A DNA stretch of 48,296 nt. Source: a virus. The notes beneath the pieces are model-generated. The model had not been told where the DNA came from. It did no database searches and saw only the letters and a list, made by a program, of their open reading frames with translations. This document shows positions 9,001-26,233 of the stretch, piece by piece. Numbering within the stretch: position 1 is the first letter of the stretch; each line of letters starts with the position of its first letter. The stretch spans positions 1 to 48,296 of the IMG/VR virus record IMGVR_UViG_3300025083_000062. One strand, given 5' to 3'. A program made the position numbers and the translations under genes.

Positions 9001-9295
9001 TGAAACAGAAGCTATCCTTCAAGGTGGTGGAGCCACAGGTGATGACGATGGTCCAACAGTTACTACAGGTGGTGGTACAAGAGCTAGAGATCCAAATTCT
9101 GGCCCAAGTACAGGAGAAAGCACCTTTACTGGTCCTAAAGGAGATAAATACACCTTTGATAGTGAAGACATGACTACTGAAGAAGAAGCAGAAAACGATG
9201 CTATCTTTGATGCCATTGACGCACAGTTTGAATCAGCAGGTGTGTCACAGAACAAAGGTGGTCTAATGGCAAGAAAAAAGGCTAACAAAAAATAA
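6065..9295 (+). CDS. Large structural protein with FNEGG motifs
   Basis: A 1076-residue protein between portal and scaffold. Visible: a small N-terminal module (about residues 35-90, around W-V-N-V-P-T-I-F-D-G), the motif F-N-E-G-G twice (near residues 91 and 580), the segment D-I-P-A-M-L-S-E-G-E-Y-V-V-P-A-D (about 629-646), which recurs in large marine phage structural proteins, a Pro/Gly/Thr-rich linker near residues 805-825, a Gly/Ala-rich hydrophobic stretch around 850-890, and a C-terminus ending in Lys-rich K-K-A-N-K-K. Likely a virion protein stored in the head or at the connector. Function beyond that is unknown. It may be processed, as the repeated motifs separate distinct modules. 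Confidence 0.7.
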   Translation: MADVGKKTGKKTQAGRDVYKTPEGELVSEKSTTFKYKGKWVNVPTIFDGKSYDEETLILMLEADIIKPTSVHNSLKEATEAARKRSDSLKFNEGGMADQTRKFYEDNVGNPEAIAEAYGVDLVDPDETLESAKAVGQFALESLPGVGTAFTVADIEDELKKEEPNYVKIGMLVGTEAIGLIPGLGTAAKNMIRKGADMARQTDEVMDVASSIPKVSRKSTPTYTDAELLEADEIISEWGKGNLTNPELRSKLREKGFTIETKRISPKMTGDDLEVVGPDGNIVRWKDMPRGRVNREADAVEAARLRNDPDALEQWRKDKKLPETQRQKNLPDAQAAAQSLIEGKITSKEARKRIQEAFPEPKEYTAEEVMNLLPTLTEVQGALGKKGTRYPILGVEGADLAEGQVVSSRLDIPAYDDYDKWVVSIHDGNQKSGSVVGYGQAIRLKNIRFGSDADTALDIARGTRTDRKTLQDAIDKKTGGPAKQNKATIARIFGEYTSEDPYDLQRQAAEIIASGSDEWTQVGMNPYRGSGFYDKKTGKPVFEADEIIQVGPLVLAKNVKKPTVSQMKEMGVRTQDGKIRMFNEGGTAMNMQKQMSLFEYGGIADDGMKKDPVSGNDIPPGSLASEVRDDIPAMLSEGEYVVPADVLRYYGVNFFEDLRNKAKTGLSSMEQNGRIGGEPLSPQQIQQNMSGAPQAGAPAPMPVQANQGVLTMPKEYTQQSQMLGAGGFNPADWATVGGSTFNQTSQQDSVTTFKTFVNSDTNQSKVIEYINGKLKNPSDEQYTVPPYYEFGTAALKKAQQATQQPTGGDDGGGTPPPTTPTSDTSLISAFDDMDLSSPLAAAEAMMANATNLGGGAGAALAASVAGPAGMGFMGLAQSGNALTNISNLNALSILAQAQGKTDDAKTIAKMADDLSGKSNLITQALDDIVATGNQKAGQLIDKYGLRATRDPKTGRFTFSQDDIKYNRSYLSTYTLARQNETEAILQGGGATGDDDGPTVTTGGGTRARDPNSGPSTGESTFTGPKGDKYTFDSEDMTTEEEAENDAIFDAIDAQFESAGVSQNKGGLMARKKANKK

Positions 9296-9307
9296 CAATA
9301 AGGCTAC

Positions 9308-9325
9308 CCAGGGAATAAACCCTGG
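9308..9325 (+). other. Intergenic stem-loop before the scaffold gene
   Basis: CCAGGG (9308-9313) and CCCTGG (9320-9325) form a perfect 6-bp stem with an AATAAA loop. No U-tract follows, so it is more likely an mRNA stability or processing element than a terminator. It separates the 1076-residue structural gene from the scaffold gene. Confidence 0.45.
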
Positions 9326-9346
9326 CCCCAACATAAGGAAAATACT

Positions 9347-10303
9347 ATGCCTGAAATGATGACAATGGAAAGCCCTAAGAAAGCAGGGTTTGTAGATAGA
9401 AGCTTCAACAACCAACAGCGCAAGAAGCGCATGGAAGAAGAAGCGAAAGAGATTGCAAAACTAGAGGCAGAGGCTCGTGGTGAAGAGTATGTTGAAGAAA
9501 GTGAACCCAGTGGCGAAAGTACTGAGGACACCCAGGTACAAGCCACAGGTGATACCCAACAAGAAGAACAAGCATCCCAGGAAGGGGAAGCACAGGAAGA
9601 CGATGCCACAGCAGGACTAAGTGCTGAAGAGAAGTCTTTCAAGAAACGTTATGGTGATCTACGCAGACACATGCAAGAGAAAGAAAAGGAATGGAATGGA
9701 CGCCTTGAAGCTCTTGAAAAAGGAAAGAAGAAACAAAGTATTGTTCCTCCTAAGTCTGATGAAGACATCGAAGAGTGGGCAAAACAGTACCCAGACGTAG
9801 CAGGTATTGTAGAAAAGATTGCTTCAGAGAAAGCAAGAGAGATGTTCAGTAAAGCAGAAGAACGTCTAAAAGAATTAGATGAAGCTCATAATGAAGCACT
9901 ACGAATGAAAGCAGAGAATGTTATTCGTAAGTCTCATGATGACTTCGATGAACTAAGACAATCAGAAGGATTCCACAACTGGGCAGAGGAACAGCCTAAG
10001 TGGGTTAGGGATGCTCTATACGAAAACATGGATGATCCTGCATCTGTTATTCGTGTGATTGATCTTTATAAGGTTGATAATGGAATGACTAAAGCAGCTA
10101 AGAGAAATACTCGTAAAGCTGCAGCGTCATCTGTTACCAAAGGTACTCGTACTTCTATTGATGCTAAAGGTGTCTCAGGTCAGATCAAAGAATCTGAGGT
10201 TGCCAAGATGTCAGCTAAGGAGTTTGAGGCTCGTCAAGATGAAATCCAAGAAGCTATGGCTTCTGGTAAATTTGTCTATGACATGTCTGGCGCAGCCAGA
10301 TAA
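9347..10303 (+). CDS. Putative scaffolding protein
   Basis: A 318-residue, very acidic, Gln/Glu-rich and almost entirely helical protein placed immediately before the major capsid gene, the classic position and composition of a capsid assembly scaffold. Residues about 40-95 form an acidic low-complexity tract, residues 100-130 a charged coiled coil, residues about 150-200 another, and the C-terminal third is basic (K-A-A-K-R-N-T-R-K around 245-255), as expected for a coat-binding end. AAGGAAA lies 7 bases before the ATG. Scaffold assignment is by position and composition. Confidence 0.75.
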   Translation: MPEMMTMESPKKAGFVDRSFNNQQRKKRMEEEAKEIAKLEAEARGEEYVEESEPSGESTEDTQVQATGDTQQEEQASQEGEAQEDDATAGLSAEEKSFKKRYGDLRRHMQEKEKEWNGRLEALEKGKKKQSIVPPKSDEDIEEWAKQYPDVAGIVEKIASEKAREMFSKAEERLKELDEAHNEALRMKAENVIRKSHDDFDELRQSEGFHNWAEEQPKWVRDALYENMDDPASVIRVIDLYKVDNGMTKAAKRNTRKAAASSVTKGTRTSIDAKGVSGQIKESEVAKMSAKEFEARQDEIQEAMASGKFVYDMSGAAR

Positions 10304-10307
10304 ACTA

Positions 10308-10335
10308 TTGACACTTAAGAAGTGATCAATATAAC
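10308..10335 (+). promoter_or_regulatory. Strong promoter upstream of the capsid gene
   Basis: A perfect TTGACA (10308-10313) and TATAAC (10330-10335) are separated by 16 bases, just past the scaffold stop. The 14-mer GATCAATATAACTA (10324-10337) covering the -10 recurs exactly on the opposite strand at 47224-47211. Predicted start near 10342, so the transcript begins at the first leader hairpin. Confidence 0.7.
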
Positions 10336-10341
10336 TACACG

Positions 10342-10388
10342 TATCTAGTATAGAGCCTCCTCAGGGACTACCTCTATAGATACTTTTT
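10342..10388 (+). terminator. Leader hairpin with U-tract (attenuator or small-RNA terminator)
   Basis: TATCTA-gta-TAGAG (10342-10355) pairs with CTCTATAGATA (10372-10382) to give 11 bp with a 3-base bulge, followed by C and five T (10384-10388). Because it begins where transcription should start, it would either release a ~47-base RNA or act as an attenuator of the capsid transcript. The stem is mostly A-U, so termination may be partial. Confidence 0.4.
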
Positions 10389-10413
10389 CATAAAAGTCTA
10401 AACTACAAAGAAC

Positions 10414-10500
10414 CACCTGTTCAAGTATAGGCCCAGTGGTATCAATGAGCGCAAGTTGATACCTACTGCACCCTAGAAAAGTAACAGCCTCTTTCAGGTG
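10414..10500 (+). promoter_or_regulatory. Structured 5' leader of the capsid mRNA
   Basis: A long imperfect hairpin: TAGG/CCTA (10428-10431, 10472-10475), internal loop, CAGT/ACTG (10434-10437, 10465-10468), one bulged T, then a perfect 8-bp stem GGTATCAA/TTGATACC (10438-10445, 10456-10463) with a 10-base loop. CACCTG (10414-10419) and CAGGTG (10495-10500) can close the whole element. No open reading frame of note lies in 10304-10542. It may stabilise the capsid mRNA or be bound by a protein; function unknown. Confidence 0.5.
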
Positions 10501-10542
10501 TTTAGCTTTCTCTTAAAGCCAAATATCATGGAGGATTTAATC

Positions 10543-11616
10543 ATGGCTTTTGCATCCGCATCAGGTTATACCAACCTGCCAAATGGGAACTTTTCCCCAA
10601 TCATCTATTCCAAAAAGGTGCAGCTTGCATTCAGGAAGAGCACAGTTGTAGGTGACATTACGAACTCTGAATATTTCGGAGAGATCGCAAATCAAGGTGA
10701 CACAGTGAAAATTATGAAAGAACCTGAGATCTCAGTTTCTGCATACACTCGTGGCACAACCATCGCAGCGCAAGATCTTAGTGATGACGATTTCTCGTTA
10801 GTCGTTGATAAAGCTAACTATTTTGCCTTCAAGATGGACGATATCGAAGAGGCTCATAGCCACATCGATTTCATGAACCTTGCTACCAACAGAGCAGCTT
10901 ACCGTCTTGCTGACCAGCATGACCAAGAAGTTCTAGGTTACCTAGCAGGTTACAAACAGTCTGCCCTACATGGGAATGCTGACACAGTTAACGATACTGT
11001 TAACGGTACTAAAGCAGACTCAACAGCAGGTGATGACGAACTACTTGCAGCAAACAAGCTAAACAAAGGTGACTTTGGTAACATCACAACAGCTTCTGCT
11101 GGTGACCATTCGATCCCTGTTGCAGCACGTTTGCCAGGTGCAACTGCACTACCAACAGAATACGTTTCACCAACAATGATGGTGGCTCGTATGGGTCGTC
11201 TACTTGATCAACAACAAGTTGACAAAGATGGTCGTTGGATCGTAATTGACCCTGTCATGATGGAAATCTTGATGGACGAAGATTCACGTTTCCTACAATC
11301 TGATTGGGGTGCTTCAGGCGGTCTACGTAACGGCCTAGTAATCAACAACTGGAATGGTTTCAGAGTTTACTCTTCTTCAAACCTACCATCAGTTGGTACT
11401 GGTGCTGCTACAACAGGTACAGACAACCAGAACACTGACTACGGTGTAATCGTAGCTGGTCATGATTCAGCCGTTGCTACTGCAGAGCAGATCAACAAGA
11501 CTGAAACATATCGTGATCCAGATTCATTTGCCGATATTGTTCGTGGTATGCACCTTTACGGTAGAAAAATTCTAAGACCAGAAGCACTGGTCACAGCTAA
11601 GTACAACTTGGCTTAG
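10543..11616 (+). CDS. Major capsid protein
   Basis: A 357-residue shell protein. The ATG at 10543 has an excellent GGAGG (10530-10534) 8 bases upstream; an in-frame GTG at 10498 lies in the structured leader and is rejected. Sequence features fit HK97-fold phage coat proteins of this size: an N-terminal arm, a segment V-K-I-M-K-E-P-E-I-S-V (about residues 64-74), a helical spine region around D-D-I-E-E-A-H-S (about 103-110), and a C-terminal A-domain with G-R-K-I-L-R-P-E-A. No cysteine is seen. It follows the scaffold, has its own strong promoter and leader, and is followed by a GC-rich hairpin, all consistent with the most highly expressed late gene. Confidence 0.88.
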   Translation: MAFASASGYTNLPNGNFSPIIYSKKVQLAFRKSTVVGDITNSEYFGEIANQGDTVKIMKEPEISVSAYTRGTTIAAQDLSDDDFSLVVDKANYFAFKMDDIEEAHSHIDFMNLATNRAAYRLADQHDQEVLGYLAGYKQSALHGNADTVNDTVNGTKADSTAGDDELLAANKLNKGDFGNITTASAGDHSIPVAARLPGATALPTEYVSPTMMVARMGRLLDQQQVDKDGRWIVIDPVMMEILMDEDSRFLQSDWGASGGLRNGLVINNWNGFRVYSSSNLPSVGTGAATTGTDNQNTDYGVIVAGHDSAVATAEQINKTETYRDPDSFADIVRGMHLYGRKILRPEALVTAKYNLA

Positions 11617-13952: not shown

Positions 13953-16900
13953 ATGGCAGGTTATACAAGACAAAGTGCTGCTGATATTGTTTCTGGTCAG
14001 GTTATTAAAGCTGAACCAGTACACAATGAATTTGAACAGCTTGTAGCAGCATTTAGTGCAAGCACAGGTCACAGACATGATGGCACTTCTACTGGAGAAG
14101 GTGGCCTCATTCCTCTAATTTCAGACACTAATCAGTACAGCAAAGTTGTTGTTGATACAGCTAACAACAGAATTAATTTCTTTACTAACGTTGGTAGTGC
14201 AGCAGTAGAGCAGGTAAGGATACAAGATGGAGCTATTGTTCCTGTCACTGATGAAGATATTGATCTGGGTTCTCCGACTGCTGAGTTTAAAGATCTTTAC
14301 ATTGATGGTGTGGGTTATATCGACACTCTGGCGATTCACGAGAATGCTACTATTACAGGTAACCTTACCGTTAATGGGAATACTACTCTTGGTAGTGACG
14401 ATAGTGATACTGTTACAGTAAATGCTGATGTTGCCTCAGACCTTATCCCTTCTGCAGATGCAACGTATGATCTAGGTGCTACAGGTAGTGAGTGGAATGA
14501 TGCTTACATTACTGGAACAGCAAATATTGACAGCCTTGTAGCTGACACAGCAGACATTAATGGTGGTACTATTGATGGTACTATAATTGGTAATACGACT
14601 GCTGCTTCTGGTGAATTTACAACTTTAGGATCTAGTGGTAACCTTACTGTTGGTGGAACTGCAGGAATTACAGGAAATACTACACTGGCAGGTACACTGA
14701 GTGTTACAGGTGCTGCAGGTTTTGCTGATACAGTAACTGTGCCAGGTCTTTCTGCCACAGGAACAGCAACTCTAGCTACGGTAGATATTAATGCAGGTAA
14801 TATTGATGGGACTGTTATCGGTGCTTCTAGTGCTGCTGCAGGTAGCTTTACTACAGTTAGTACGACAGGACAGGGTACTTTTGCTTCAGTCGATATCAAT
14901 GGGGGCACTATTGACGGTGCTATTATTGGTGGGACTACAGCAGGTGCTATAACAGGTACAACAGTTACAGCTAACACTTGCTTCGTAGGTGATGTTACTG
15001 GTGCTGTTTCAGGTAATGTAACAGGCAACCTAAATGGTAATGCAGTAGGTTGTCACACAGGAAACTTTGATGGTGTAGTTGGTGCTACAACACCTGCTGC
15101 TGTAACTGGCACAACCATCACAGCCAATACTTGCTTTGTTGGAGATATAACAGGTGATGTAACAGGTACAGTCACAGGAAACGTGACTGGTGACTTGACT
15201 GGTGATGTAACTTCAGTAGGTACTTCTACTTTCTGTGATATTAACATGACAGGTACAGCAGGGCTTGATATGGGTTCTGCTAAAATTACCTCTCTTGGGA
15301 CACCAACCCTTGATGGAGATGCAAGTACAAAGTGTTATGTAGACCAACAAATCAGTAACCTAGTTGGTGGTGCTCCTGGTGCTCTTGATACTCTGAGTGA
15401 ACTAGCTGATGCTATCAACAATGATGCAGACTTCTATACATCCCTTACAACTTGCTTAGGTACAAAACTAGCATGTGCAGGTGGAACTATGTCAGGGGAT
15501 CTTTCCCTTGGTGCTAACAAAGCTACATCTACAGCTACACCTGCTACAGATGATACATTGACTCGTAAGGGTTACGTTGATACACAAGATGCTCTAAAAC
15601 TAAACCTGACTGGTGGAACCATGTCGGGTGCTATTGCTATGGGTACATCAAAGATCACAGGACTAGGTGATCCTACTCTAGCACAAGATGCAGCCACAAA
15701 GACATACACAGATACTCAACGTGATACAAGACTAGCTTGTTCTGGTGGTACTGTAACTGGCACTATTGATATGGGTGCCAATAAAATCACTACGACTTAT
15801 ACACCTACTGATGCTGCTGATTTGACTACGAAGACTTATGTTGACGGTATTCTACAGTCAGCTACAGATGCAGCCACTTCAGCTACTTGTGCTGCTAATA
15901 GTGCAACTGCTGCAGCTACATCTGAAACAAATGCAAGTAACTCAGCTACTGCTGCTGCTACTTCAGCAACAAATGCAGCTACTTCTTACGATGACTTTGA
16001 TGACAGATACCTTGGTGATAAAGCTTCAGACCCATCAGTAGACAACGATGGAGATGGATTACTTACTGGTGCATTATACTGGAATACTACAGACAATGCT
16101 CTAAAAGTATACACAGGATCTGCTTGGAACTCTGCAGCATTTACCCTTGGTGATGCTCTTACTGCTATTTCTGATGATACTAGCCCCACCCTTGGTGGAA
16201 ATTTAGATGCTAACAGTAACTGTATTACAGGTGTAGCAAACATTTGTGCTACCAACCTTTGTGGTACACTGACAGGTAACGTTACTGGTAATGTCACTGG
16301 TTGTGTTTCAACACTGGGTAATCATGATACAGATGACCTAGCAGAGGGGACAAACCAGTACTTTACAACAGCTAGAGTAGACAGCCACCTATCAGGTGGT
16401 ACAGGTGTTACTTACACATCTGGTGCAATAGCTATTGGACAGGCTGTTGGTACAGCAGACAACGTATGCTTTGGTTCTGTCTGTGTTTCAGCAAATCCAA
16501 CTTTAGCTTGCCAACTTGCAACCAAAGAGTACGTTGATACAATTGCTGCTGCAGGGTTACACTACCATGATCCTGTTCGTGTTCAAACAACAGCCAGCTT
16601 ATCTGCTACGTATGACAATGGGTCATCAGGTGTAGGGGCAACACTTACTAACAACGGCACCCAAGCTGCAATAAGTATTGATGGTGTGGCACTTTCAAGT
16701 GCAGATCGTGTTCTTGTTACAGAACAAACTAATGCTTATGAAAATGGTGTTTACACAGTTACTACTGTAGGATCTGGTTCTACTAACTGGGTTCTTACTC
16801 GTTCTACAGATACCGATAGTTCAGCACCATCTGATCCTGATGCACTAGGACAAGGTGATGCTTTCTTTATCAAAGAAGGTGACACAAATGCAGGTCACTT

Positions 16901-18275
16901 AGATGTTTTAAGTACTCAAGGTACAATTACTTTCGGTACTACAAACATTGTATTTGCTGAAGTTGCTGAGACCTCTATCTACTCAGCAGGTAATGGTATT
17001 GCACTTACTGGAACATCATTTAGTGCTGATGCAGGTACAGGTGTTACTGTTGATGGTAATGGAATTAACATTGGACAAGCAGTAGGCACATCTGATACAG
17101 TAACCTTTGCCAGAGTATGTGCTCCTGTCACAGGTGCTGTTACTGGTAATGCTGACACAGCAAGTGCTTGGGCTACAGCTAGAACACTGTGTGTCTGTGG
17201 AGCAGTAACAGGTTCTACCTCAGTAGATGGTTCAGGTAACTTCACAGTCAATACAACTGCTACTTCTGATCCTACACTTTGTATCTGTGGAGATGCTACA
17301 GGTTCTGCTACATTCACAAACCTTGGTAATGCTAACCTTAGCCTCACTATTGCAGACGATAGCCACAACCACACAGTAGCTAACGTTGATGGACTAGCAA
17401 CATGTTTGTCAGGTAAAGCTGCAACAAATGGTTCTACCTCTAACAACTTTAGTGGTGCATGTATTTGTGCAGCAAATTGTGTTAGAGGTCAATTCGTATA
17501 CTCAGCAGGTAGTGTGTGTGCAGCTACTTGTGTAGGAGCTAACTGCTGTGTAAAAGCACCAGTAGTTTGTGCTTCATCTGCCCTTAGAGGTACTTGTCTG
17601 GCAGCAGGAACCTGTGTCAATGCCCCAGAAGTCTGTGCTACTACTTGGCTTAAAGTAGGTGGCAGATGTATCTGTCAATCAGCAGGTGACTACGGTTCTA
17701 TCTCTGTTGTAGGGGGTGATGGTAACTGGCCTGGATATAGTATTGCAAACCACACTGTCTTTATGGCAAACGGCACTGATGCAGGAATTTATAATGATAC
17801 TACAAATGAATGGTATTTAAAAGCCACATGTAATGCAGGTACATGCCTACATTATAATGGTAGTGGTATGCTTTGCACTACATCTTATGGTGCAAGAACA
17901 GAGAACTGCCACTGTGTAGAGTGCTGTCTAAAGACAAATGTTGTTTGTGGTGTTACAACCAGAGGTACAACAGCTTGCTTCACTGACTTCAACTCTACTT
18001 CTGACTGCAGATGCAAAGACAACATTGCTACAGTAGAAGATGCTTACACAAAACTAGGTCAGATCAGAGGTGTGAACTATAACTGGAAAGATTCTGGTAA
18101 GTACACAATGGGTGTTGTTGCTCAAGAAGTAGAAGAAGCATTCCCAGAACTTGTTACAACAGATGACGATGGTTACAAATCAGTCAACTATAATGGCTTG
18201 GTAGGTGCACTCATTGAAACTGTGAAGTGTCTACAAGGTAAAGTAGAGGAACTAGAGAATGGCTCTAAAGGTTAG
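13953..18275 (+). CDS. Cysteine-rich tail fibre with C-terminal S74 chaperone
   Basis: A 1440-residue fibre. Residues 1-45 look like a tail-attachment domain (V-H-N-E-F-E-Q-L, H-R-H-D-G-T). Long Asn/Thr/Gly repeats follow (T-G-N-V-T-G type), with A-T-K-x-Y-V-D segments and an Ala/Thr/Ser coiled region near residues 630-690. The C-terminal ~100 residues are a peptidase S74 intramolecular chaperone: S-D-C-R-C-K-D-N-I carries the self-cleavage Ser and Lys, then G-V-V-A-Q-E-V-E-E-A-F-P. Such domains trimerise the fibre and cut themselves off. I count 47 Cys, none before residue 343 and densest at about 1085-1350 (clusters such as A-N-C-C-V-K). It overlaps the next gene by 17 bases. Confidence 0.9.
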   Translation: MAGYTRQSAADIVSGQVIKAEPVHNEFEQLVAAFSASTGHRHDGTSTGEGGLIPLISDTNQYSKVVVDTANNRINFFTNVGSAAVEQVRIQDGAIVPVTDEDIDLGSPTAEFKDLYIDGVGYIDTLAIHENATITGNLTVNGNTTLGSDDSDTVTVNADVASDLIPSADATYDLGATGSEWNDAYITGTANIDSLVADTADINGGTIDGTIIGNTTAASGEFTTLGSSGNLTVGGTAGITGNTTLAGTLSVTGAAGFADTVTVPGLSATGTATLATVDINAGNIDGTVIGASSAAAGSFTTVSTTGQGTFASVDINGGTIDGAIIGGTTAGAITGTTVTANTCFVGDVTGAVSGNVTGNLNGNAVGCHTGNFDGVVGATTPAAVTGTTITANTCFVGDITGDVTGTVTGNVTGDLTGDVTSVGTSTFCDINMTGTAGLDMGSAKITSLGTPTLDGDASTKCYVDQQISNLVGGAPGALDTLSELADAINNDADFYTSLTTCLGTKLACAGGTMSGDLSLGANKATSTATPATDDTLTRKGYVDTQDALKLNLTGGTMSGAIAMGTSKITGLGDPTLAQDAATKTYTDTQRDTRLACSGGTVTGTIDMGANKITTTYTPTDAADLTTKTYVDGILQSATDAATSATCAANSATAAATSETNASNSATAAATSATNAATSYDDFDDRYLGDKASDPSVDNDGDGLLTGALYWNTTDNALKVYTGSAWNSAAFTLGDALTAISDDTSPTLGGNLDANSNCITGVANICATNLCGTLTGNVTGNVTGCVSTLGNHDTDDLAEGTNQYFTTARVDSHLSGGTGVTYTSGAIAIGQAVGTADNVCFGSVCVSANPTLACQLATKEYVDTIAAAGLHYHDPVRVQTTASLSATYDNGSSGVGATLTNNGTQAAISIDGVALSSADRVLVTEQTNAYENGVYTVTTVGSGSTNWVLTRSTDTDSSAPSDPDALGQGDAFFIKEGDTNAGHLDVLSTQGTITFGTTNIVFAEVAETSIYSAGNGIALTGTSFSADAGTGVTVDGNGINIGQAVGTSDTVTFARVCAPVTGAVTGNADTASAWATARTLCVCGAVTGSTSVDGSGNFTVNTTATSDPTLCICGDATGSATFTNLGNANLSLTIADDSHNHTVANVDGLATCLSGKAATNGSTSNNFSGACICAANCVRGQFVYSAGSVCAATCVGANCCVKAPVVCASSALRGTCLAAGTCVNAPEVCATTWLKVGGRCICQSAGDYGSISVVGGDGNWPGYSIANHTVFMANGTDAGIYNDTTNEWYLKATCNAGTCLHYNGSGMLCTTSYGARTENCHCVECCLKTNVVCGVTTRGTTACFTDFNSTSDCRCKDNIATVEDAYTKLGQIRGVNYNWKDSGKYTMGVVAQEVEEAFPELVTTDDDGYKSVNYNGLVGALIETVKCLQGKVEELENGSKG
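14553..14930 (+). repeat. Coding repeats in the fibre shaft
   Basis: Three copies of a module encoding D-I-N-(G/A)-G-x-I-D-G-x-(I/V)-I-G begin at 14553, 14784 and 14892, each followed by an A-A-(S/A)-G-(E/S)-F-T-T-like strand in the first two. They mark the repetitive beta-structured shaft just before the first cysteine of the protein. Confidence 0.7.
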
Positions 18276-18474
18276 TGGCACAACTGTTATTGACGACAGT
18301 AAAAACATTCCTTCAGGAACACCATCAGTGCAAGGGACGATAGTGACAGCTACCGTCCTTACTGCACCTTCTGGCACTACAGCTAATAGACCTGGCTCTC
18401 CAGCAACAGGGCAACTTTACTTTGATACTGATGAAGGAACATTGGTTGCTTACAATGGAACCGAATGGGTTTGA
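18259..18474 (+). CDS. Mini fibre-base protein, paralogue of the next gene's N-terminus
   Basis: A 71-residue protein that aligns without gaps to residues 1-69 of the protein at 18505 (shared G-T-T-V, A-P-S-G, S-P-A-T-G, L-Y-F-D-T-D-E-G). It has no cysteine, whereas its paralogue has five in the same stretch. This type of module is usually the tail- or fibre-attachment end of adhesins, so the small protein may be a stand-alone base or adaptor, or a relic of a fibre swap. Its start overlaps the S74 fibre gene by 17 bases. Confidence 0.7.
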   Translation: MALKVSGTTVIDDSKNIPSGTPSVQGTIVTATVLTAPSGTTANRPGSPATGQLYFDTDEGTLVAYNGTEWV

Positions 18475-18504: not shown

Positions 18505-20625
18505 ATGGCATATAAGATTAATGGCACTACGGTGGTCGATAACAGCAGGAACGTCTGTGCCTGTTGTGTTACCTCGTGTTGTATTACAGCAAGCACAAAG
18601 CTTGATGCACCCTCAGGAAATACAGCCAGTAGGCCAAGTTCTCCTGCTACTGGTTCTTTGTATTTTGATACTGATGAAGGATCTCTTTTATCTTATGATG
18701 GTTCTGACTGGGCTGCTGTAGGAGGTGGAGAAGAAGTTATTGAAACACCATATATTGTCGGTAAATTTTCACATGAACATAGCCCAGAAACAAGTGCAGG
18801 TGGAGTTTGGTGGACTAATAGACGAACATCAACAGGTATAGTTTTTGGTGGTTCTGGAACTTATGAGACTTGGGAATACTCTAGATTCGTTTGCTGTGGT
18901 TGCCAAGTTAATCCTTCAGCAAATGGCCATTGTGTTTATTTAGCTTGGGATAGAACTAATCTTCCTGCTAAGACTAGTGAGGGTAGTGTTACTTCTGATT
19001 ATCATATGGAAATAGCAGGAGACATGTATTGTACTTGTACTAGACCTGAAGGTCAATCAGGCAATTTTGCAAAGATTGTTCCTTCTGCATTTCCATACGG
19101 AGGTCTCTGTGTAGGATCTTGTAGTCAAGGTAGGGTTCTATATAATGTTAGAACTGGTAGTTTACGACTATTCCCAGGTTTTGTTGATAATGATGATGTA
19201 AGGGGTTGTTATAGAGTTTTCACTAGAAACTATGAGATTTCTACAAACTGTGCTGATGTGTGCTGGGCAAAACAAGCATTTTTAACAAATGGTAGATTTG
19301 CATACTGTGGAAATTCTGGCGCAGGTACTGTTGCATCAGGTGTTCATTGTTGTGGTATTTCAGTAAGTGGTTCTGCATACCACAATTCTGGTGCTAATAA
19401 AATATGTAAATTATTTCAAAATAATATAGTTGTTACTGTAGGTTTTTGCCCAGAATCTGTATTTGATTGTACCTGTTGTTTTGCAGCCAGTGCTGGTTGC
19501 ATAAAGTCTTATGCTTATACTCGGTATGATGGTTCTTTAGGTGGATACATGGATTATTTTTATCCACATATCGACTATGCTAACAGAATGCTTGTTATGG
19601 CTACGTTTTATACTGGAGGTTGCTTCCAAGGATTTGCAAAGTATTGTTTGTGTGATGGAGGAAATGCAGCTTGTGTTCAATGTACATACCTCGTTCAATG
19701 CCCTGTCCAAAGTACTATAGGGTACAACTCAAACACTTATCAAGATAGTTACGGTGGTTGTTTTCCTTATATTAGGCAAGGTGTTTTTTGGTGTGATAGG
19801 TTTATTTTTATACCTAGTTGTTATGGGAACAGTGCATCCAATAGAATAGCTATTTTTAATTTTAATTACAGTGATAATTGTTGTGCTGGAAAATCTTGTG
19901 TTTATAGATTTTGGTGTAACCAAGCTCAAACTTATAGTATTCTTGGAGTTCTTATAGATCATAACTGCCATTTAAGAGTGTACACAAGCTTCCTATCAAA
20001 CTGTTGCTGTGGTCTTCTTGAACATGTATGGACTGCTCCTTGTAATTTTGAATGGCACTGTTATCCTGCTCAATACGTAAACGAACTAAAACAAATATGT
20101 GGATCTGGATGTTATGCAAATTCACCAACTTGTGTTGCATGTCCTGACGGTGGTACTCTATCTGGTTCAATAGGAACACCTGAACATATTTATCAAGATC
20201 CTTACACTTGTAAAATTGTAATGAATCCTTACACTATTAGAAGAGGTGCCTCAAGGACAAGTCTATCTTTTGCTTTTGATCCACCTGCTAATGATGCAGC
20301 AAACTGCACAGTTATATTTAAAGCATTTGACAGTAGTAAAAATGGTTACTGTATTATTAGAGAATGTAAAGCAAGTTGTATTTACCCATGTGTTACTTGT
20401 CTTTCTAAATTCTACTGGATGGGTTTTTGTGGAAATTGTTATACTTTGAATTGTTCTCCTGCATGTCAATGTCTTAGTCCTGGAGGAACTGCTTGCTTTG
20501 GTGTTTGCCCAGGGTATCAATCTTGTCTAATAGGTCAAATCTTTTCAGATAATAGTGCTTGTGGTAATAAACAGTTTAAAAGTGGTCCAACAGGTAACTT
20601 AAAATGTAACTATGCAGGATCTTAA
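18505..20625 (+). CDS. Cysteine-saturated second fibre / receptor-binding protein
   Basis: A 706-residue protein with 65 Cys by my count (about 9%). Residues 1-75 are the attachment module shared with the preceding gene; the rest is beta-rich with many Trp/Tyr/Phe and short repeats that read as a propeller- or sandwich-like receptor-binding region. Cysteines are spread through the protein, often paired or tripled (C-A-C-C at 18-21, C-C at 25-26, S-N-C-C-C-G, D-C-T-C-C-F). GGACGGAG precedes the ATG. Position next to the fibre makes a tip or side-fibre role likely. Disulfide crosslinking or metal binding are the obvious possibilities; the receptor is unknown. A promoter for the sugar cassette begins just after its stop. 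Confidence 0.8.
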   Translation: MAYKINGTTVVDNSRNVCACCVTSCCITASTKLDAPSGNTASRPSSPATGSLYFDTDEGSLLSYDGSDWAAVGGGEEVIETPYIVGKFSHEHSPETSAGGVWWTNRRTSTGIVFGGSGTYETWEYSRFVCCGCQVNPSANGHCVYLAWDRTNLPAKTSEGSVTSDYHMEIAGDMYCTCTRPEGQSGNFAKIVPSAFPYGGLCVGSCSQGRVLYNVRTGSLRLFPGFVDNDDVRGCYRVFTRNYEISTNCADVCWAKQAFLTNGRFAYCGNSGAGTVASGVHCCGISVSGSAYHNSGANKICKLFQNNIVVTVGFCPESVFDCTCCFAASAGCIKSYAYTRYDGSLGGYMDYFYPHIDYANRMLVMATFYTGGCFQGFAKYCLCDGGNAACVQCTYLVQCPVQSTIGYNSNTYQDSYGGCFPYIRQGVFWCDRFIFIPSCYGNSASNRIAIFNFNYSDNCCAGKSCVYRFWCNQAQTYSILGVLIDHNCHLRVYTSFLSNCCCGLLEHVWTAPCNFEWHCYPAQYVNELKQICGSGCYANSPTCVACPDGGTLSGSIGTPEHIYQDPYTCKIVMNPYTIRRGASRTSLSFAFDPPANDAANCTVIFKAFDSSKNGYCIIRECKASCIYPCVTCLSKFYWMGFCGNCYTLNCSPACQCLSPGGTACFGVCPGYQSCLIGQIFSDNSACGNKQFKSGPTGNLKCNYAGS

Positions 20626-20627
20626 AG

Positions 20628-20656
20628 TTTACATACTAAAGTGAATGTGTTAAAAT
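20628..20656 (+). promoter_or_regulatory. Promoter for the surface-sugar cassette
   Basis: TTTACA (20628-20633) and TAAAAT (20651-20656), each 5 of 6 to the sigma70 consensus, are separated by exactly 17 bases in the gap after the fibre gene. It can drive the cassette independently of the virion operon. Confidence 0.6.
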
Positions 20657-20662
20657 AATCAC

Positions 20663-20679
20663 CAGTCCTTTTTGGACTG
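20663..20679 (+). promoter_or_regulatory. Hairpin in the leader of the sugar cassette
   Basis: CAGTCC (20663-20668) and GGACTG (20674-20679) form a perfect 6-bp stem with a T5 loop. It lies right at the predicted transcript start and has no U-tract after it, so it may protect the 5' end rather than terminate. Confidence 0.4.
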
Positions 20680-20707: not shown

Positions 20708-21634
20708 ATGAAAACTGTTTTTATGATTGATGGTGGAGCAGGTAGGGCTATAGCAGCTATTCCTGCCCTCATCAAGTACTCAAAGAAAAACAAAGACTTT
20801 CGTATTATGGTGCATGGTTGGGACTCTCTATACTGGGGTATTCCAGAACTACATGATAAAGTCTTTAACCCAGATCAGAAAGGTGCCTTTGAACAATTCT
20901 TTATGGATGCAGATAGAGTTATATCTCCAGAGCCATATAGAGTACCAGGGTACTACAAACAAGAAAAGTCTCTTGCTGAATCATTTGATTACTTAATTAA
21001 TGAGACTGATGATCATTCTGATTTAGGTGATCCTACCCTTGTAACAAACAGGAATGAAGAACTTCAAGCAGCTAACTTTATGCAGCAAGTTAGGCAACAG
21101 CAGCAGAAGCAGAAGACTATTGTTATTCAACCTTTCGGTAGATCCATTGAAAAACCACAGGAAGGTGTTTTATTAGACCAATCTTCTCGTTCTATTAATC
21201 CAGATACATACCTTAAACTAGCAAAGAAACTAGCAACAAAGTACAACCTAGTTTTGTTTGCTGAGAAAAACTTCTGGATGCCTGAAGACACATACACCAT
21301 GAAGCCTGAAGCAGACCTTCGTATGTGGGCCTGTTTTATTGAGGCAGCAGACTACTTTATTGGATGTGACTCTGTAGGCCAACATATGGCAAAGGCTTTA
21401 AGTAAACCTGGATCAGTTATCATGGGGTCTACTTTTGCTATAAACACTACGTACCCTAATCACTTTAATATTATAGAAAGGAACGTTCCTAAAGTATATT
21501 CACCTATTCGTATATCAGGTCTTGAATCTCATTTAGCAGATCGTTTTAATGAAGGAACTGTTGAGTTTACAGACGAAGAAATAAACAAAGTATATGCTGA
21601 CATTGTAAAAGATATCGAAAAGAAGGTGAAGTGA
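20708..21634 (+). CDS. GT9-like glycosyltransferase (heptosyltransferase-type)
   Basis: A 308-residue protein. A short N-terminal beta-alpha start (V-F-M-I-D-G-G-A-G-R-A-I-A-A-I-P) and the C-terminal motif F-I-G-C-D-S-V-G-Q-H-M-A-K-A-L (about residues 217-231) match the family 9 glycosyltransferase pattern of a sugar-nucleotide pocket, as in ADP-heptose:LPS heptosyltransferases. With ADP-heptose genes downstream, transfer of heptose to a lipopolysaccharide or other glycan is the natural inference; the acceptor is unknown. ATG 20708 follows a GAAGAAG stretch; an in-frame TTG at 20672 sits in the hairpin and is rejected. The next gene starts 1 base after the stop. Confidence 0.65.
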   Translation: MKTVFMIDGGAGRAIAAIPALIKYSKKNKDFRIMVHGWDSLYWGIPELHDKVFNPDQKGAFEQFFMDADRVISPEPYRVPGYYKQEKSLAESFDYLINETDDHSDLGDPTLVTNRNEELQAANFMQQVRQQQQKQKTIVIQPFGRSIEKPQEGVLLDQSSRSINPDTYLKLAKKLATKYNLVLFAEKNFWMPEDTYTMKPEADLRMWACFIEAADYFIGCDSVGQHMAKALSKPGSVIMGSTFAINTTYPNHFNIIERNVPKVYSPIRISGLESHLADRFNEGTVEFTDEEINKVYADIVKDIEKKVK

Positions 21635-21635
21635 G

Positions 21636-23348
21636 ATGAATATTTTAGGAATTAACCCAGGTCACAATGGTTCTGCTGCTTTACTGGTAGATGGTGAATT
21701 AAAGTTTTATATAGAAGAAGAAAGATTTTCTCGTACTAAATATGACGGGAACCCTTTTAGAGGTATCCTTGAAGCACTTAAGTATGGGATTGATATTTTA
21801 ATTCTAGGAGGTACTCACCCAGAGTTTCCTCAGTTACCTTGGACAGGCGAAGACCCATACACTGCCCTTGTTCGTAAACATAACCCTGATGTTAAAGTTG
21901 TAAATCTTGCAAATGCACATCATGCAGGTCATGCAGCAGGAGCTTTCTACAACTCAGGTTTTGATGATGCTGTAGCTGTCGTTGTAGATGGGGCAGGAAC
22001 AAGACAAGGAATAAAGGTCACAGATGATTTTACTAATTATGGATTTGAGACAGAATCTATTTTTGACTGTGACTACGAAGAAGGTGTAAAAGCTATTTAC
22101 CAATCTTTTGGAGGAAACCCAGATACTCAAAGGATTACCAACGAAAGTATATTCATGGACTCAGCAGTAACTATTGTAAAAGCTTACGAAGCTGTATCTG
22201 AATATCTTGGTTTTGGTTATATTGAAGCAGGTAAAACAATGGGCCTTGCTCCTTATGGTAAGGCAACAGATAAAATCCCACCTTTATTTGTTAACACTAG
22301 AGGGGATAAAAATATGTTTTTCCCTAACTACCCTGCAGGTGCTCACATTGACCATGAACGTTGGGACTACTTAGTGCTCAGAGATGACCCAAAAGCTTGG
22401 CATAAAGATCCAAGTAGAGTCACTGATGCAGCAAAAGATCTAGCTTGGGCAGTTCAAGATCAAACACAAACTCTTGTTGGAGACTTGATCGAAAAAGCTG
22501 TAATGATGTCTGGTAAAAAGAACGTTGTTATTGCTGGTGGTTATGGTCTAAACTGCATGGCAAACTACTACTACAAGAAACGTTTTCCTGACCTTAATAT
22601 CTTTGTTGACCCTATCTCACATGATGGTGGCACAGCCCTTGGTCTTGCAAGACTAGTCCATCACATAGAAACAAAAGATAAAACAAAACGTCCACTAGAC
22701 ACTCTGTACCTTGGTCCTGAACGTGAAGAGTCTTACGACTTTGGTGACATTGAAACAAAGAAAGTAAAACCTTCTGATGTAGCAAAGCTTATCTCTGAGA
22801 AGAATATCGTAGCTTTGTATCAAGGACGTTCTGAGGCTGGACCTCGTGCACTAGGGAATCGTTCTATCCTGTACGATCCCACAGATCCTAATGGTAAGGA
22901 CACAGTAAACAAGGTCAAAGGACGTGAGTGGTTTAGACCATTTGCTGGCTCTATGATGCAGGAACATTTTGAGGAGTGGTTCGACACCTACGGTATGGAA
23001 GAGTCACCATTCATGATGTATGCAATGGACTTCAAGTTAGAGAAGCATGGTGAGTGTCCTGCTATCACACACGTAGACGGTACATGTCGTATTCAAACTG
23101 TGACTAAAGAACAGAATGAAACATATCATACTCTGATTGATGAGTTCCGTAAGATTACTGGTGTACCTATTCTATTCAACACTAGCTTCAACTTAGCAGG
23201 TGAGCCACTGGTAGAGACACTAGATGATGCTATGAGAACCATTAAGAACTCAGACATCAACTATTTGTATTTACCAGAGATGGGTAAGTTGGTACACTAC
23301 CCCTACAATAATTCAGTTGTAGAAGATCTAGGAGAAGAGGCTGCTTAA
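21636..23348 (+). CDS. NodU/CmcH-family carbamoyltransferase
   Basis: A 570-residue enzyme of normal length. The N-terminal Kae1-like domain has N-A-H-H-A-G-H (93-99) with the metal-binding histidines and V-V-D-G-A-G (about 116-121); the C-terminal domain has G-R-S-E-A-G-P-R-A-L-G-N-R-S (about 398-411), the family hallmark. These enzymes transfer a carbamoyl group from carbamoyl phosphate, via carbamoyl-AMP, to a hydroxyl of a sugar or other small molecule. Its neighbours suggest carbamoylation of a sugar made or transferred by the cassette. AAGAAGG lies upstream. Its stop codon shares the palindrome TTAA (23345-23348) with the stop of the convergent phosphatase gene. Confidence 0.9.
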   Translation: MNILGINPGHNGSAALLVDGELKFYIEEERFSRTKYDGNPFRGILEALKYGIDILILGGTHPEFPQLPWTGEDPYTALVRKHNPDVKVVNLANAHHAGHAAGAFYNSGFDDAVAVVVDGAGTRQGIKVTDDFTNYGFETESIFDCDYEEGVKAIYQSFGGNPDTQRITNESIFMDSAVTIVKAYEAVSEYLGFGYIEAGKTMGLAPYGKATDKIPPLFVNTRGDKNMFFPNYPAGAHIDHERWDYLVLRDDPKAWHKDPSRVTDAAKDLAWAVQDQTQTLVGDLIEKAVMMSGKKNVVIAGGYGLNCMANYYYKKRFPDLNIFVDPISHDGGTALGLARLVHHIETKDKTKRPLDTLYLGPEREESYDFGDIETKKVKPSDVAKLISEKNIVALYQGRSEAGPRALGNRSILYDPTDPNGKDTVNKVKGREWFRPFAGSMMQEHFEEWFDTYGMEESPFMMYAMDFKLEKHGECPAITHVDGTCRIQTVTKEQNETYHTLIDEFRKITGVPILFNTSFNLAGEPLVETLDDAMRTIKNSDINYLYLPEMGKLVHYPYNNSVVEDLGEEAA

Positions 23349-23992
23349 GGTAGCCTGTTCACAAATTGAAGGAGGTTATCGAAAACCTTAGTCTTCTTTC
23401 TTAACTTCTCTTTTGAGAACTTCTTTAGCTCTCCTTCAGTGTCCACCCCATGACCAGTTCTTACTAAGATTGGGGTGGCACCAATTCTCTCAGCAGCTTT
23501 AAGGTCAGACATCTTATCACCTACATAGAAACCTTTATCTTTAAACCTAGTCTTACCGCCAAATATTTCTTTCTCTACTCTGTGAAACATACCTAAGTTA
23601 GGCTTGGCATAAATGTCCTCTTTCAATGAAGACTCAGAATAGAAAAGACCATCAATAGTGTAGATACCTGCCTGTCCAAAGATTTCAAACATACGTTGGT
23701 GTACAGCTTCTACTTGCTCATGTGTTTGTAATCCTTTAATAATACCACCCTGGTTAGTTAATATTACCACTTTGTAACCTTTCATACGAAGCTTGTGGAT
23801 AGCTGCTAGGGAGTCAGGGTATACTTCAAAGTCTTCAGGATCTGTGATGTAGTGGCCTTTATCTACGTTGATGACACCATCACGATCTAGTCCTACAATA
23901 GATTTAGGAAAGACTGTAGGCCAATCTGGGGGTAACTCTTGTTGAGGTTGTTGACTTGGTTCTTGTGTAATAATATGTTTGAATCTGGACAT
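23345..23992 (-). CDS. gmhB: GmhB-like D-heptose bisphosphate phosphatase (HAD family)
   Basis: A 215-residue HAD hydrolase. G-L-D-R-D-G-V-I-N (34-42; D36, D38), L-T-N-Q-G-G (78-83), K130-P131 and V-G-D-K-M-S-D (157-163) are the four HAD motifs in the form typical of histidinol/heptose-bisphosphate phosphatases, which remove the 7-phosphate from D-glycero-D-manno-heptose 1,7-bisphosphate. The zinc loop of bacterial GmhB (two Cys pairs and a His) is absent: residues 118-129 have no Cys. It has an extra N-terminal ~28 residues rich in Gln/Pro. It is the only leftward gene in the left 35 kb, converging with the carbamoyltransferase gene and separated by 17 bases from the divergent nucleotidyltransferase gene. 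Confidence 0.8.
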   Translation of the reverse strand: MSRFKHIITQEPSQQPQQELPPDWPTVFPKSIVGLDRDGVINVDKGHYITDPEDFEVYPDSLAAIHKLRMKGYKVVILTNQGGIIKGLQTHEQVEAVHQRMFEIFGQAGIYTIDGLFYSESSLKEDIYAKPNLGMFHRVEKEIFGGKTRFKDKGFYVGDKMSDLKAAERIGATPILVRTGHGVDTEGELKKFSKEKLRKKTKVFDNLLQFVNRLP

Positions 23993-24009
23993 ATTAGGAT
24001 CTTTACCTC

Positions 24010-24420
24010 ATGAAGAAAGTTTTTGTTAATGGTGCATTTGATGTACTGCACTCTGGACACCTAGATCTCCTTGATTTTGCAGGGATGTTAGGTGGTCATT
24101 TGCTAGTAGCTATTGACACAGACAGGCGTATTGAGTATAACAAGGGTACTGGAAGACCTTTTAATCCTTTGTCAATACGTAAACATATAATGTCTATGTT
24201 GAAGCCTGTCAATAGTGTCAGAGTATTTGATACAGACGAGGACTTGGTAGGTATTATAAAAGCTTATCAGCCTGATGTAATGGTAAAAGGATCTGATTGG
24301 AAGGGAAAGACAATACTTGGGGAGGAGTACTGCAAAGAAATAGTATTCTACGAGAGAACCAATGGGCAGTCTACCACAAAAGCAATCGAAGATTTTATTA
24401 CTAGGCGACAGTTGTTATGA
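24010..24420 (+). CDS. hldC: Heptose-1-phosphate adenylyltransferase (HldE C-domain type)
   Basis: A 136-residue nucleotidyltransferase of the TagD/RfaE2 family: N-G-A-F-D-V-L-H-S-G-H (7-17) with the H-x-G-H catalytic motif at 14-17, and E-R-T-N-G-Q-S-T-T (about 115-123), the sequence typical of heptose-1-phosphate adenylyltransferases. It would convert D-glycero-beta-D-manno-heptose 1-phosphate and ATP to ADP-heptose. In most bacteria this is the C-terminal half of HldE; here it is a separate gene placed before the kinase, with a 59-base out-of-frame overlap. It starts 17 bases from the divergent phosphatase gene. A cytidylyltransferase specificity cannot be excluded. Confidence 0.82.
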   Translation: MKKVFVNGAFDVLHSGHLDLLDFAGMLGGHLLVAIDTDRRIEYNKGTGRPFNPLSIRKHIMSMLKPVNSVRVFDTDEDLVGIIKAYQPDVMVKGSDWKGKTILGEEYCKEIVFYERTNGQSTTKAIEDFITRRQLL

Positions 24421-25120
24421 TGAATACCACACAGGCACTGTAACTAGAATAAGCCCAGAGGCACCTGTGCCTGTCTTTGATCTTACCTCAACCGTAATCA
24501 AAAGGGGTATGGCATACAACGTCTACAACAACTTAGTTAATCTGGGTGCTAGAGTAGACATCATAACAGAGTACAGAGAACGTAAACACAGATACGTTGA
24601 AGATAAGACTGGTCAGCAACTGATCAGAGTAGATGAAAAGATTAAGACTGAGCACATAGATACAGCAGACGAAGATGTAAGTATGTATGATGCTGTTGTT
24701 ATCTCAGACTACAACAAAGGTTTTATAGAAGATAACGACATAAAAGATTTCAGAGCTAAGTATAACGGCCCTATCTTTGTAGATACTAAGAAGACTAACC
24801 TAGCTCAGTTTGATGGCTGCTTCGTAAAGATAAACCAGTACGAACTGGAAGCAGCAGAAACACTAACAGACGAACTTATCGTCACATACGGCTCAAAGAA
24901 AGTCGAGTATAAGAACAGAACTTACCTACCCCCTAGTGTAGAAACTCATGATGTGTGTGGTGCAGGAGATACATTCCTTGCGGGTCTTGTATTCAACTAT
25001 CTAGATACTTATGATATAGACAAGGCTATAAAGTTTGCAATGGATGCAGCAGCCATAACTGTCCAACACAGAGGAGTCTATGCTCCTACACTAACAGAGG
25101 TAACACAACATGCGACTTGA
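24362..25120 (+). CDS. hldA: Heptose-7-phosphate kinase-like (PfkB family, HldE N-domain type)
   Basis: A 252-residue PfkB-family kinase, shorter than the ~310-residue kinase half of HldE. K-I-L-L-L-G-D-S-C-Y-D-E at residues 10-21 matches the HldE opening strand, R-I-S-P-E-A-P-V-P-V-F follows as in HldE, and D-V-C-G-A-G-D-T (about 198-205) holds the catalytic Asp and anion hole. It would phosphorylate D-glycero-D-manno-heptose 7-phosphate at C1. The only usable start is ATG 24362, inside the preceding gene; the shared 59 bases are read in two frames. Shortening appears to be in the middle and in the substrate lid, so activity should be tested before being assumed. Confidence 0.78.
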   Translation: MGSLPQKQSKILLLGDSCYDEYHTGTVTRISPEAPVPVFDLTSTVIKRGMAYNVYNNLVNLGARVDIITEYRERKHRYVEDKTGQQLIRVDEKIKTEHIDTADEDVSMYDAVVISDYNKGFIEDNDIKDFRAKYNGPIFVDTKKTNLAQFDGCFVKINQYELEAAETLTDELIVTYGSKKVEYKNRTYLPPSVETHDVCGAGDTFLAGLVFNYLDTYDIDKAIKFAMDAAAITVQHRGVYAPTLTEVTQHAT

Positions 25121-25466
25121 AGGCTTCGTTAAGAAGGGCTGGGGTTCTGAACTTATATGGGTAACAAATGACGAGTATTGTAGTAAGTTTCTATCTTTTA
25201 ATACTGGTGCTAAATTCTCTATGCACTTCCACAAAGATAAGAAAGAAAGTTGGTACGTTCTATCTGGCAAGTTTGAGGTTCTTTGGATCGACACAGAAGA
25301 CGCCACCACACACGTTGAGTCCTTGGGTGAGGGCGATGCCTGGACGAACCCGACTCTTGTACCTCATCAAATCATTTGCTTAGAAGAGGGAACAATACTA
25401 GAGGTCTCTACCCCTGATTCTGTAGAAGATAATTACAGAGTAGCAAAAGGTGACAGCCAGTCATGA
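25110..25466 (+). CDS. Cupin, mannose-6-phosphate isomerase-like
   Basis: A 118-residue single-domain cupin. K-G-W-G-S-E-L-I-W (9-17) corresponds to the K-P-W-G-x-E opening of ManC/phosphomannose isomerase-type cupins, and H39, H41, E46 plus a later His (in V-P-H-Q) supply the metal site. It may isomerise or epimerise a sugar phosphate in the cassette; a replacement for the missing GmhA isomerase is an attractive but untested idea. It overlaps the kinase gene by 11 bases and the epimerase gene by 4. Confidence 0.7.
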   Translation: MRLEGFVKKGWGSELIWVTNDEYCSKFLSFNTGAKFSMHFHKDKKESWYVLSGKFEVLWIDTEDATTHVESLGEGDAWTNPTLVPHQIICLEEGTILEVSTPDSVEDNYRVAKGDSQS

Positions 25467-26233
25467 AAATACTCGTCACTGGGAGTAATGGCTTCATTGG
25501 TCAAAACATGGTCAATGCCCTGACACCACACCACGAAGTGGTAAAGAATGAGTGGGGCATGTCCTTTCCTAAGGTAGAAGGATTGGACTGGGTAGTACAC
25601 TTAGGGGCTATTAGCTCCACAACTGAGACAAACATCTCTAAGATATATAGACAGAATGTAGAGTTCAGCATTAAGTTGTATGAAGAATGTATCAAGCATA
25701 ACATTAAGTTTCAGTTTGCTTCCAGTGCTTCAGTCTATGGACTAAAGTCAGACTTCAAGGAGACATCTCCTGTTGATCCTCAGAACCATTATGCTCGTAG
25801 TAAGGCATTGTTTGAAAAGTATGTAGAGTTTAGAAATGCTGATATCACTACTCAGATATTTAGATACTTCAACGTACATGGCCCCCACGAGGAGCACAAA
25901 GGAAACCAAGCAAGTCCCTTCACCAAGTTTATGGGACAAGCTAAAAAGACTGGTAAGATAAAACTGTTTAAAGGTTCTCCTAAATACTTCAGAGACTTTA
26001 TTCACGTAGGTAAAGTTGTGATGGATCAGCAAAGATTCTTTGATGTAGACGAGTCAGGTATATGGAATTTTGGTACAGGCAATCCTCGTAGCTTCTACGA
26101 TGTAGCCCTAGAAGTCTCAGACAAGACTGGTGCAACTATAGAGTTTATTGCTTTCCCAGAGAATTTAAAAGGTAATTACCAAGAGTTTACTAAAGCAGAC
26201 ACAACAAAGCTTAGACAGACTTTAGCATTATAA
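25463..26233 (+). CDS. hldD: ADP-heptose 6-epimerase-like SDR protein
   Basis: A 256-residue extended short-chain dehydrogenase/reductase. G-S-N-G-F-I-G (7-13) binds NAD(P), S-S-A-S-V-Y-G and Y-A-R-S-K supply the Ser/Tyr/Lys catalytic set, and F-R-Y-F-N-V-H-G-P with E-E-H-K-G-N-Q-A-S, R-D-F-I-H-V and Y-Q-E-F-T-K-A-D match the specific pattern of HldD, which converts ADP-D-glycero- to ADP-L-glycero-D-manno-heptose. It is somewhat shorter than E. coli HldD (about 310 residues). Coupled to the cupin by an ATGA overlap; last gene of the cassette, 11 bases before the ejection protein gene. Confidence 0.82.
   Translation: MKILVTGSNGFIGQNMVNALTPHHEVVKNEWGMSFPKVEGLDWVVHLGAISSTTETNISKIYRQNVEFSIKLYEECIKHNIKFQFASSASVYGLKSDFKETSPVDPQNHYARSKALFEKYVEFRNADITTQIFRYFNVHGPHEEHKGNQASPFTKFMGQAKKTGKIKLFKGSPKYFRDFIHVGKVVMDQQRFFDVDESGIWNFGTGNPRSFYDVALEVSDKTGATIEFIAFPENLKGNYQEFTKADTTKLRQTLAL

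Follow-up and report, generated by a model that had tools for sequence, protein, structure and literature searches.

A viral ADP-heptose and carbamoylation cassette associated with cysteine-rich fibre proteins in a roseobacter-type podophage

Introduction

In the cyanomyoviruses P-SSM2, S-CAM1, S-CAM3 and S-SSM7, a syntenic cassette 3' of the tail fibres encodes T4-GC 302 (a glycosyltransferase, GT), 303 (NodU), 304 (HldC), 305 (HldA), 306, 307 (a cupin) and 308 (HldD). Sullivan et al. described co-occurring lipopolysaccharide (LPS) genes including 304, 305, 307 and 308 in three phages and left undecided whether these are functional or stuffer DNA (PMC3037559); for the P-SSM2 genes, alteration of the cell surface has been proposed (PMC2984593). 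Here we analyze a cassette of this kind at positions 20708-26233 of the IMG/VR virus record IMGVR_UViG_3300025083_000062, a stretch of 48,296 nucleotides (48.3 kb; the window) from a roseobacter-type podophage. The cassette lies within the virion operon, 3' of the fibre genes, where an earlier note made from the sequence alone had placed it. Its GT is associated, across unrelated phages, with cysteine (Cys)-rich fibre proteins, and the cassette may serve the phage to glycosylate its own tail-fibre tips.

The cyanomyovirus cassettes resemble that of the source phage in their genes, in a near-identical order after the fibres and in the Cys-rich tips encoded upstream; they differ in having a short HAD phosphatase instead of GmhB and HldD on the opposite strand, and their carriers are 180-250 kb myoviruses of cyanobacteria. 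Among characterized enzymes, the bacterial autotransporter heptosyltransferases TibC and Aah have a GT9-type fold, an ADP-heptose donor and an adhesin as acceptor, the last of which is proposed for the phage GT from genomic association. The phage GT, however, lacks the domain formed by TibC residues 1-96, has Arg13 at the probable place of the catalytic Asp and is almost exclusively viral, and TibC modifies Ser. The LPS heptosyltransferases WaaC and WaaF share the fold and the D..H residues of the donor site with the phage GT, but at ~15% identity, with an invariant Arg in the GT apparently in place of the catalytic-base Asp13, and with GT scores far under the family cut-offs. Mycobacteriophages encode glycosylation of their virions. 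They would resemble the source phage in that a phage transferase modifies its own virion, and differ in that the latter carries a whole sugar pathway and a link to Cys-rich tips.

Results

Association of the glycosyltransferase with cysteine-rich proteins

Proteins of at least 200 residues with at least 6% Cys were classed as Cys-rich, and 145 GT loci were reduced to 55 clusters at 85% identity, of which the informative ones were counted. A Cys-rich protein is present in 23 of 24 clusters with the full cassette, 16 of 21 with NodU only, and one of four without NodU; counted by locus, it is found in 122/146 with the GT vs 1/69 without. This single GT-less locus (L144, positions 379-1803; an open reading frame (ORF) of 474 residues, 8.4% Cys) is a 6.3-kb fragment, in which the ORF lies beyond the tail gene on the opposite side. 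When HMO-2011-type loci were retrieved via an unrelated tail gene, 19 had both the GT and a Cys-rich protein, 8 had neither, and none was discordant; after addition of every examined locus bearing this tail gene and removal of duplicates with an identical copy of it, 25 had both, 8 neither and one was discordant (agreement 33/34). Within the annotated phage collection, every homologue of the cyanomyovirus Cys-rich tip comes from a phage that carries the GT. In S-SM2, P-TIM68, S-T4 and Sf-CH5, the Hld genes belong to LPS-type clusters that contain other glycosyltransferases but lack the T4-GC 302 enzyme, and none of these clusters has a Cys-rich protein encoded within 40 kb. The sugar module therefore appears to be shared by two uses, with Cys-rich tips tied to the GT and not to heptose synthesis as such. 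A further set of loci (L074-L087, L100-L109) carries GT and NodU with no Hld genes in the sequence examined, some with a Cys-rich protein several kb off and others with none.

The fibre proteins encoded upstream of the GT contain 7-13% Cys, a pattern that recurs in most relatives; in the source phage, the large virion proteins otherwise, capsid and portal among them, contain 0-0.8%, and the virion proteins adjoining the long fibre 0-0.4%. The 706-residue Cys-rich fibre and the Cys-bearing distal part of the 1440-residue fibre (Table 1) had been overlooked by the earlier note. With Cys masked, 121 Cys-rich proteins fall into 29 mutually unrelated BLAST clusters and, judged by sequence, do not form one family. 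One of these clusters, the cyanomyovirus tip, was modelled with AlphaFold2 (AF2) at a moderate predicted local distance difference test score (pLDDT) of 70; as the model matches the cyanophage Pam3 fibre (Z 15.2) and also the Bxb1 tail tip, at least this cluster is predicted to be a tail tip. Conservation of Cys within families equals that of Gly and Trp, and where Cys is lost it mostly gives way to the polar or small residues T, N, S or G, which points to a function for each Cys and would fit modification, disulphides or metal binding alike. Hydropathy around Cys gave no signal for buried or exposed positions. Among the loci examined, Cys-rich tips had no Cys-poor homologue from which to read ancestral residues directly; an IMG/VR scan with the C-terminus of the window's adhesin returned the same phage only, and a literature search on phage fibres rich in Cys and on S-glycosylation of virions found nothing relevant.

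By sequence, the 308-residue GT matches GT9 weakly (E 1e-4 to 0.03), with 21 bits against TIGR02201 (cut-off 170.2) and 14.3 bits against PF01075 (cut-off 22), both below threshold; its profile found no sequence homologue in the PDB, so that the fold search alone was informative. The AF2 model, built from an alignment of 48 family members (mean pLDDT 94.5), matches 3tov (Z 23.9), WaaF (Z 21.9), TibC (4rap; Z 21.1 over 262 residues) and WaaC (Z 19.8), next to chloroplast NDH-complex subunits (Z 19-20), with all others at or below 13. For the model, this is a decisive match to the GT9 GT-B fold with ADP-heptosyltransferases on top. The alignment to TibC begins at TibC residue 97, leaving no equivalent of its N-terminal domain. 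In the GT family, residue 13 is Arg in 48/48 members; in the donor site, D221 is invariant and H226 is found in 47/48. In WaaC and WaaF, the catalytic Asp is residue 13. Shared numbering and aligned ranges, as opposed to a printed residue pairing, suggest that Arg13 occupies the place of this Asp, D110 in TibC. In TibC, which attaches heptose to serines of an autotransporter adhesin, the D110A mutation abolishes activity (PMC4358343). Speculatively, an Arg could suit a thiolate acceptor, a thiol needing less base catalysis than a hydroxyl. The only recurrent Cys of the GT family is C220, which argues against a Cys-bound iron and a dodecamer as in TibC and Aah. The family is close to virus-specific: 84,980 genomes yielded 10 loci, all on contigs of metagenome-assembled genomes (MAGs) and all with Cys-rich ORFs upstream, and relatives of the GT are encoded on at least 579 IMG/VR stretches.

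Enzymes of the cassette

All seven ORFs of the cassette are intact, match named families and keep their active-site motifs, in agreement with the seven enzymes that the earlier note had listed; ADP-heptose synthesis plus heptosyl transfer, which it had read from them, has good support from family matches, motifs and fold. The motifs kept are LDRDGV, TNQ and GDxxxD in the phosphatase, HxGH and STT in HldC, RISPEAPVPV and GAGD in HldA, GSNGFIG, SSA, YxxxK and HKG in HldD (with the catalytic S, YxxxK and HKG all present), and HHxxH (metal), GRSExGPRALG and FNTSFN in the carbamoyltransferase. Scores remain below the curated NCBIfam equivalog cut-offs for HldD (218 bits against TIGR02197, cut-off 274.6), HldA (124/345), HldC (96/181.5) and the 7-phosphatase (126/178); as the signature motifs are intact, the Hld-type proteins are best read from their sequences as divergent family members. 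The HldC and HldA reading frames overlap by 59 bases. The GmhB-like protein has no cysteine and would therefore lack the zinc loop of E. coli GmhB. Its gene is on the minus strand amid a plus-strand operon; in AG-345-O18 (L005), the homologue follows NodU on the plus strand.

Two annotations in the cyanomyovirus cassettes deserve comment. T4-GC 306 (L002, positions 14728-15072, PSSM2_311 of P-SSM2; also in L003, L004 and L200-L203) is labelled 'phosphoheptose isomerase'. It lacks a SIS domain, bears a DxDGT motif near its N-terminus and matches HAD proteins weakly; it was therefore rejected as a GmhA, and it looks like a short HAD phosphatase in non-orthologous replacement of GmhB. T4-GC 307, the cupin, is labelled 'cysteine dioxygenase' despite its full 3-His/1-Glu motif; this motif differs from that of cysteine dioxygenases and argues against the assignment, which was rejected. 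In S-SSM7 (L004, positions 8469-11613), an additional NodU-like carbamoyltransferase, a DenV-type endonuclease and a tryptophan halogenase are inserted in the cassette.

The isomerase step

GmhA is absent from the window, as the earlier note had observed, and from all related phage records searched; searches of 29 and 34 records, complete P-SSM2, S-CAM3, S-SSM7 and CRP-9 among them, gave no SIS_2 match. Of the two suppliers that the note had considered for this step, host GmhA is unlikely, since heptose synthesis is mostly missing from the inferred host family and since the LPS of marine Synechococcus, the host type of the sister cassettes, is heptose-free (PMC4515613). In the inferred host family, GmhA (TIGR00441) is found in 4/120 genomes vs 58/114 across the class, and HldE1 in 1/120; the family is that of a Rhodobacteraceae MAG with a sister cassette on one, probably viral, contig, its group membership being taken from the MAG title. 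The other supplier, the cupin, gains strength as a candidate: it accompanies HldA in 49 of 50 loci, a phosphatase being present in 48, and its metal ligands H39, H41, E46 and H86 are invariant. It scores slightly above the cut-off of PF01050. Its closest solved chains, however, are oxalate decarboxylases. From its sequence and context, the cupin is most likely the sedoheptulose-7-phosphate isomerase replacing GmhA.

Expression and genomic setting

A private promoter, suggested in the earlier note, is supported by the conservation of a -10-like element and a covarying hairpin ahead of the GT in aligned relatives (Table 1). A scan of the window found no further copy of the promoter-like site with leader sequence. 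Together, these predicted elements support a dedicated transcript with a hairpin leader. Another promoter-like site lies inside HldC on the minus strand (24281-24253).

The nearest relative of the source phage is Roseobacter phage CRP-9, with 94.6% identity in the capsid protein and 85.7% in the DNA polymerase. CRP-9 is a HMO-2011-type podophage of the RCA lineage (PMC8528129). The source phage is assigned by sequence to the HMO-2011 type and, as CRP-9 is its nearest relative, likely has a roseobacter host. The virion operon is common to CRP-9, CRP-13 and HMO-2011, in which the heptose cassette is absent; heptose, LPS and carbamoyltransferase are not mentioned in the main text of the HMO-2011-type phage paper. 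As PADLOC returned no match, a reading of the cassette as a defence system is unsupported and was dropped.

Table 1. Features of the cassette, its leader and the upstream fibre genes in the window
Feature	Position	Strand	Evidence
Long tail fibre, 1440 aa, 47 Cys (3.3%), all within residues 343-1426; possible second acceptor	13953..18275	+	
Small 71-aa fibre module, resembles N-terminus of the next protein (706-aa fibre)	18259..18474	+	Read from sequence; conserved in relatives
Cys-rich fibre/adhesin, 706 aa, 9.2% Cys; proposed acceptor	18505..20625	+	N-terminal PHROG match to virion structural protein
Promoter-like TTTACA-17-TAAAAT, TG before -10	20628..20656	+	-10 conserved in aligned relatives
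5' leader hairpin CAGTCC-TTTTT-GGACTG	20663..20679	+	Kept in relatives, compensatory changes at three pairs
GT9-fold (hepto)syltransferase	20708..21634	+	phrog_8954 / T4-GC 302; AF2 model, fold matches
NodU/TobZ-type O-carbamoyltransferase (T4-GC 303)	21636..23348	+	Both Pfam domains above cut-off, motifs
GmhB-like HAD heptose bisphosphate phosphatase, no Cys	23345..23992	-	Profile match, motifs
HldC-like heptose-1-phosphate adenylyltransferase (T4-GC 304)	24010..24420	+	Profile match, motifs
HldA-like heptose-7-phosphate kinase (T4-GC 305), shorter than HldE1	24362..25120	+	Profile match, motifs
Cupin (T4-GC 307), 3-His/1-Glu metal site intact; candidate sedoheptulose-7-P isomerase	25110..25466	+	
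HldD-like ADP-heptose 6-epimerase (T4-GC 308)	25463..26233	+	TIGR02197 E 1.5e-64, catalytic residues aligned

Discussion

The reading that we find most likely, with about an even chance, is that the phage uses this self-contained cassette to glycosylate the tips of its own tail fibres. Sedoheptulose-7-phosphate would be isomerized, most likely by the cupin in the role that GmhA has elsewhere, and converted to ADP-heptose by HldA, the phosphatase (GmhB-like here), HldC and HldD. The GT9-fold enzyme would then move the heptose onto the fibre-tip adhesin encoded directly upstream, with the abundant cysteines as probable acceptors, and the NodU-type enzyme, going by its family, would perhaps O-carbamoylate the sugar. 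Transcription is predicted to begin at the dedicated promoter with its hairpin leader. A more specific version can be held only tentatively and is open to considerable doubt: that a virus-specific GT with Arg for the catalytic Asp S-heptosylates dozens of tip cysteines to give a carbamoylated heptose coat, with unrelated adhesins having gained ~10% Cys as acceptor sites and the cupin replacing GmhA.

Several points weigh against tip glycosylation. The 6% cut-off was chosen after the data had been seen, though the distribution of Cys content is bimodal; the Fisher p of 5e-7 for the pooled HMO-2011-type loci is too small, as many loci share descent; and the conserved cysteines could be structural, in disulphides or at metals. 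In addition, there are loci in which the GT is present without a Cys-rich protein. L036 (47.7 kb; also G018) encodes GT, NodU, HldC, HldA, cupin and HldD with neither GmhB nor a Cys-rich protein; L102 has GT, HldC, HldA and HldD, but NodU, the cupin and a Cys-rich protein are all missing from the stretch examined; and five NodU-only and two GT-only clusters have none in the sequence examined. The fibres of L036 are Cys-free and Ser/Thr-rich, making it a natural test case for acceptor specificity, and L091 encodes a 2063-residue protein that at 4.9% Cys is slightly under the cut-off. These exceptions could reflect a GT that acts on other residues, or an exchange of the tip.

Another possible, if somewhat doubtful, explanation is that adhesins are glycosylated on Ser, Thr or Asn, or that there is no direct link at all, the cysteines only stabilizing the tips through disulphides or metals while tips and cassette are passed on jointly as one module. 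The strong conservation of Cys positions would suit it, as would a mild enrichment of CC and CxC pairs over our own expectation from composition, the modification of Ser by TibC (PMC4358343), and L036 with its cassette and Cys-free, Ser/Thr-rich fibres. However, the Cys-rich proteins are unrelated across phages, which makes a single inherited module unlikely, and relatives without the cassette have practically no Cys-rich tips.

Modification of the host surface, whereby heptosylated and carbamoylated host LPS or capsule would mask the receptor on debris or block superinfection, is less likely but a serious rival. It has been proposed as cell-surface alteration (PMC2984593), and the same Hld genes do occur in the LPS-type clusters of S-SM2, P-TIM68, S-T4 and Sf-CH5 together with other glycosyltransferases; yet it gives no reason to expect Cys-rich fibres, or a single GT family, itself almost missing from cells, in phages of both cyanobacteria and roseobacters, hosts mostly without heptose. 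Of the surface roles offered in the earlier note, decoration of the virion fits best, given the tight link to Cys-rich tips, and masking of the host surface is the less probable one.

Non-functional cargo, the 'stuffer DNA' raised for cyanomyovirus LPS genes, whose function was never tested (PMC3037559), is very improbable for a cassette that is intact with active-site motifs in ~50-kb podophages and large myoviruses alike, with cupin and phosphatase kept in 49/50 and 48/50 HldA loci. Attachment of the sugar to phage DNA, which phages do glycosylate and which the earlier note had raised as an option, finds no support and is most improbable, the proteins searched including no hydroxymethyl-pyrimidine or other base-hypermodification gene, the GT fold being that of a GT9 heptosyltransferase, and the cassette adjoining the fibres and not replication genes.

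Known before were the 'LPS genes' of cyanomyoviruses, with their use left open and stuffer DNA as one option (PMC3037559); new here is the link of the cassette and its GT to fibre proteins with 7-13% Cys. The occurrence of the cassette in small roseobacter-type podophages, tied to unrelated Cys-rich tips, makes this use specifically and cheaply testable. If glycosylation of the phage's own tips holds true, it would predict a new cupin heptose isomerase and correct two standing annotations, and it would bear on receptor binding, on the stability of tips in seawater and on the chemistry of S-glycosylation. These phages would then coat their own organ of host recognition with a sugar seldom made by their hosts.

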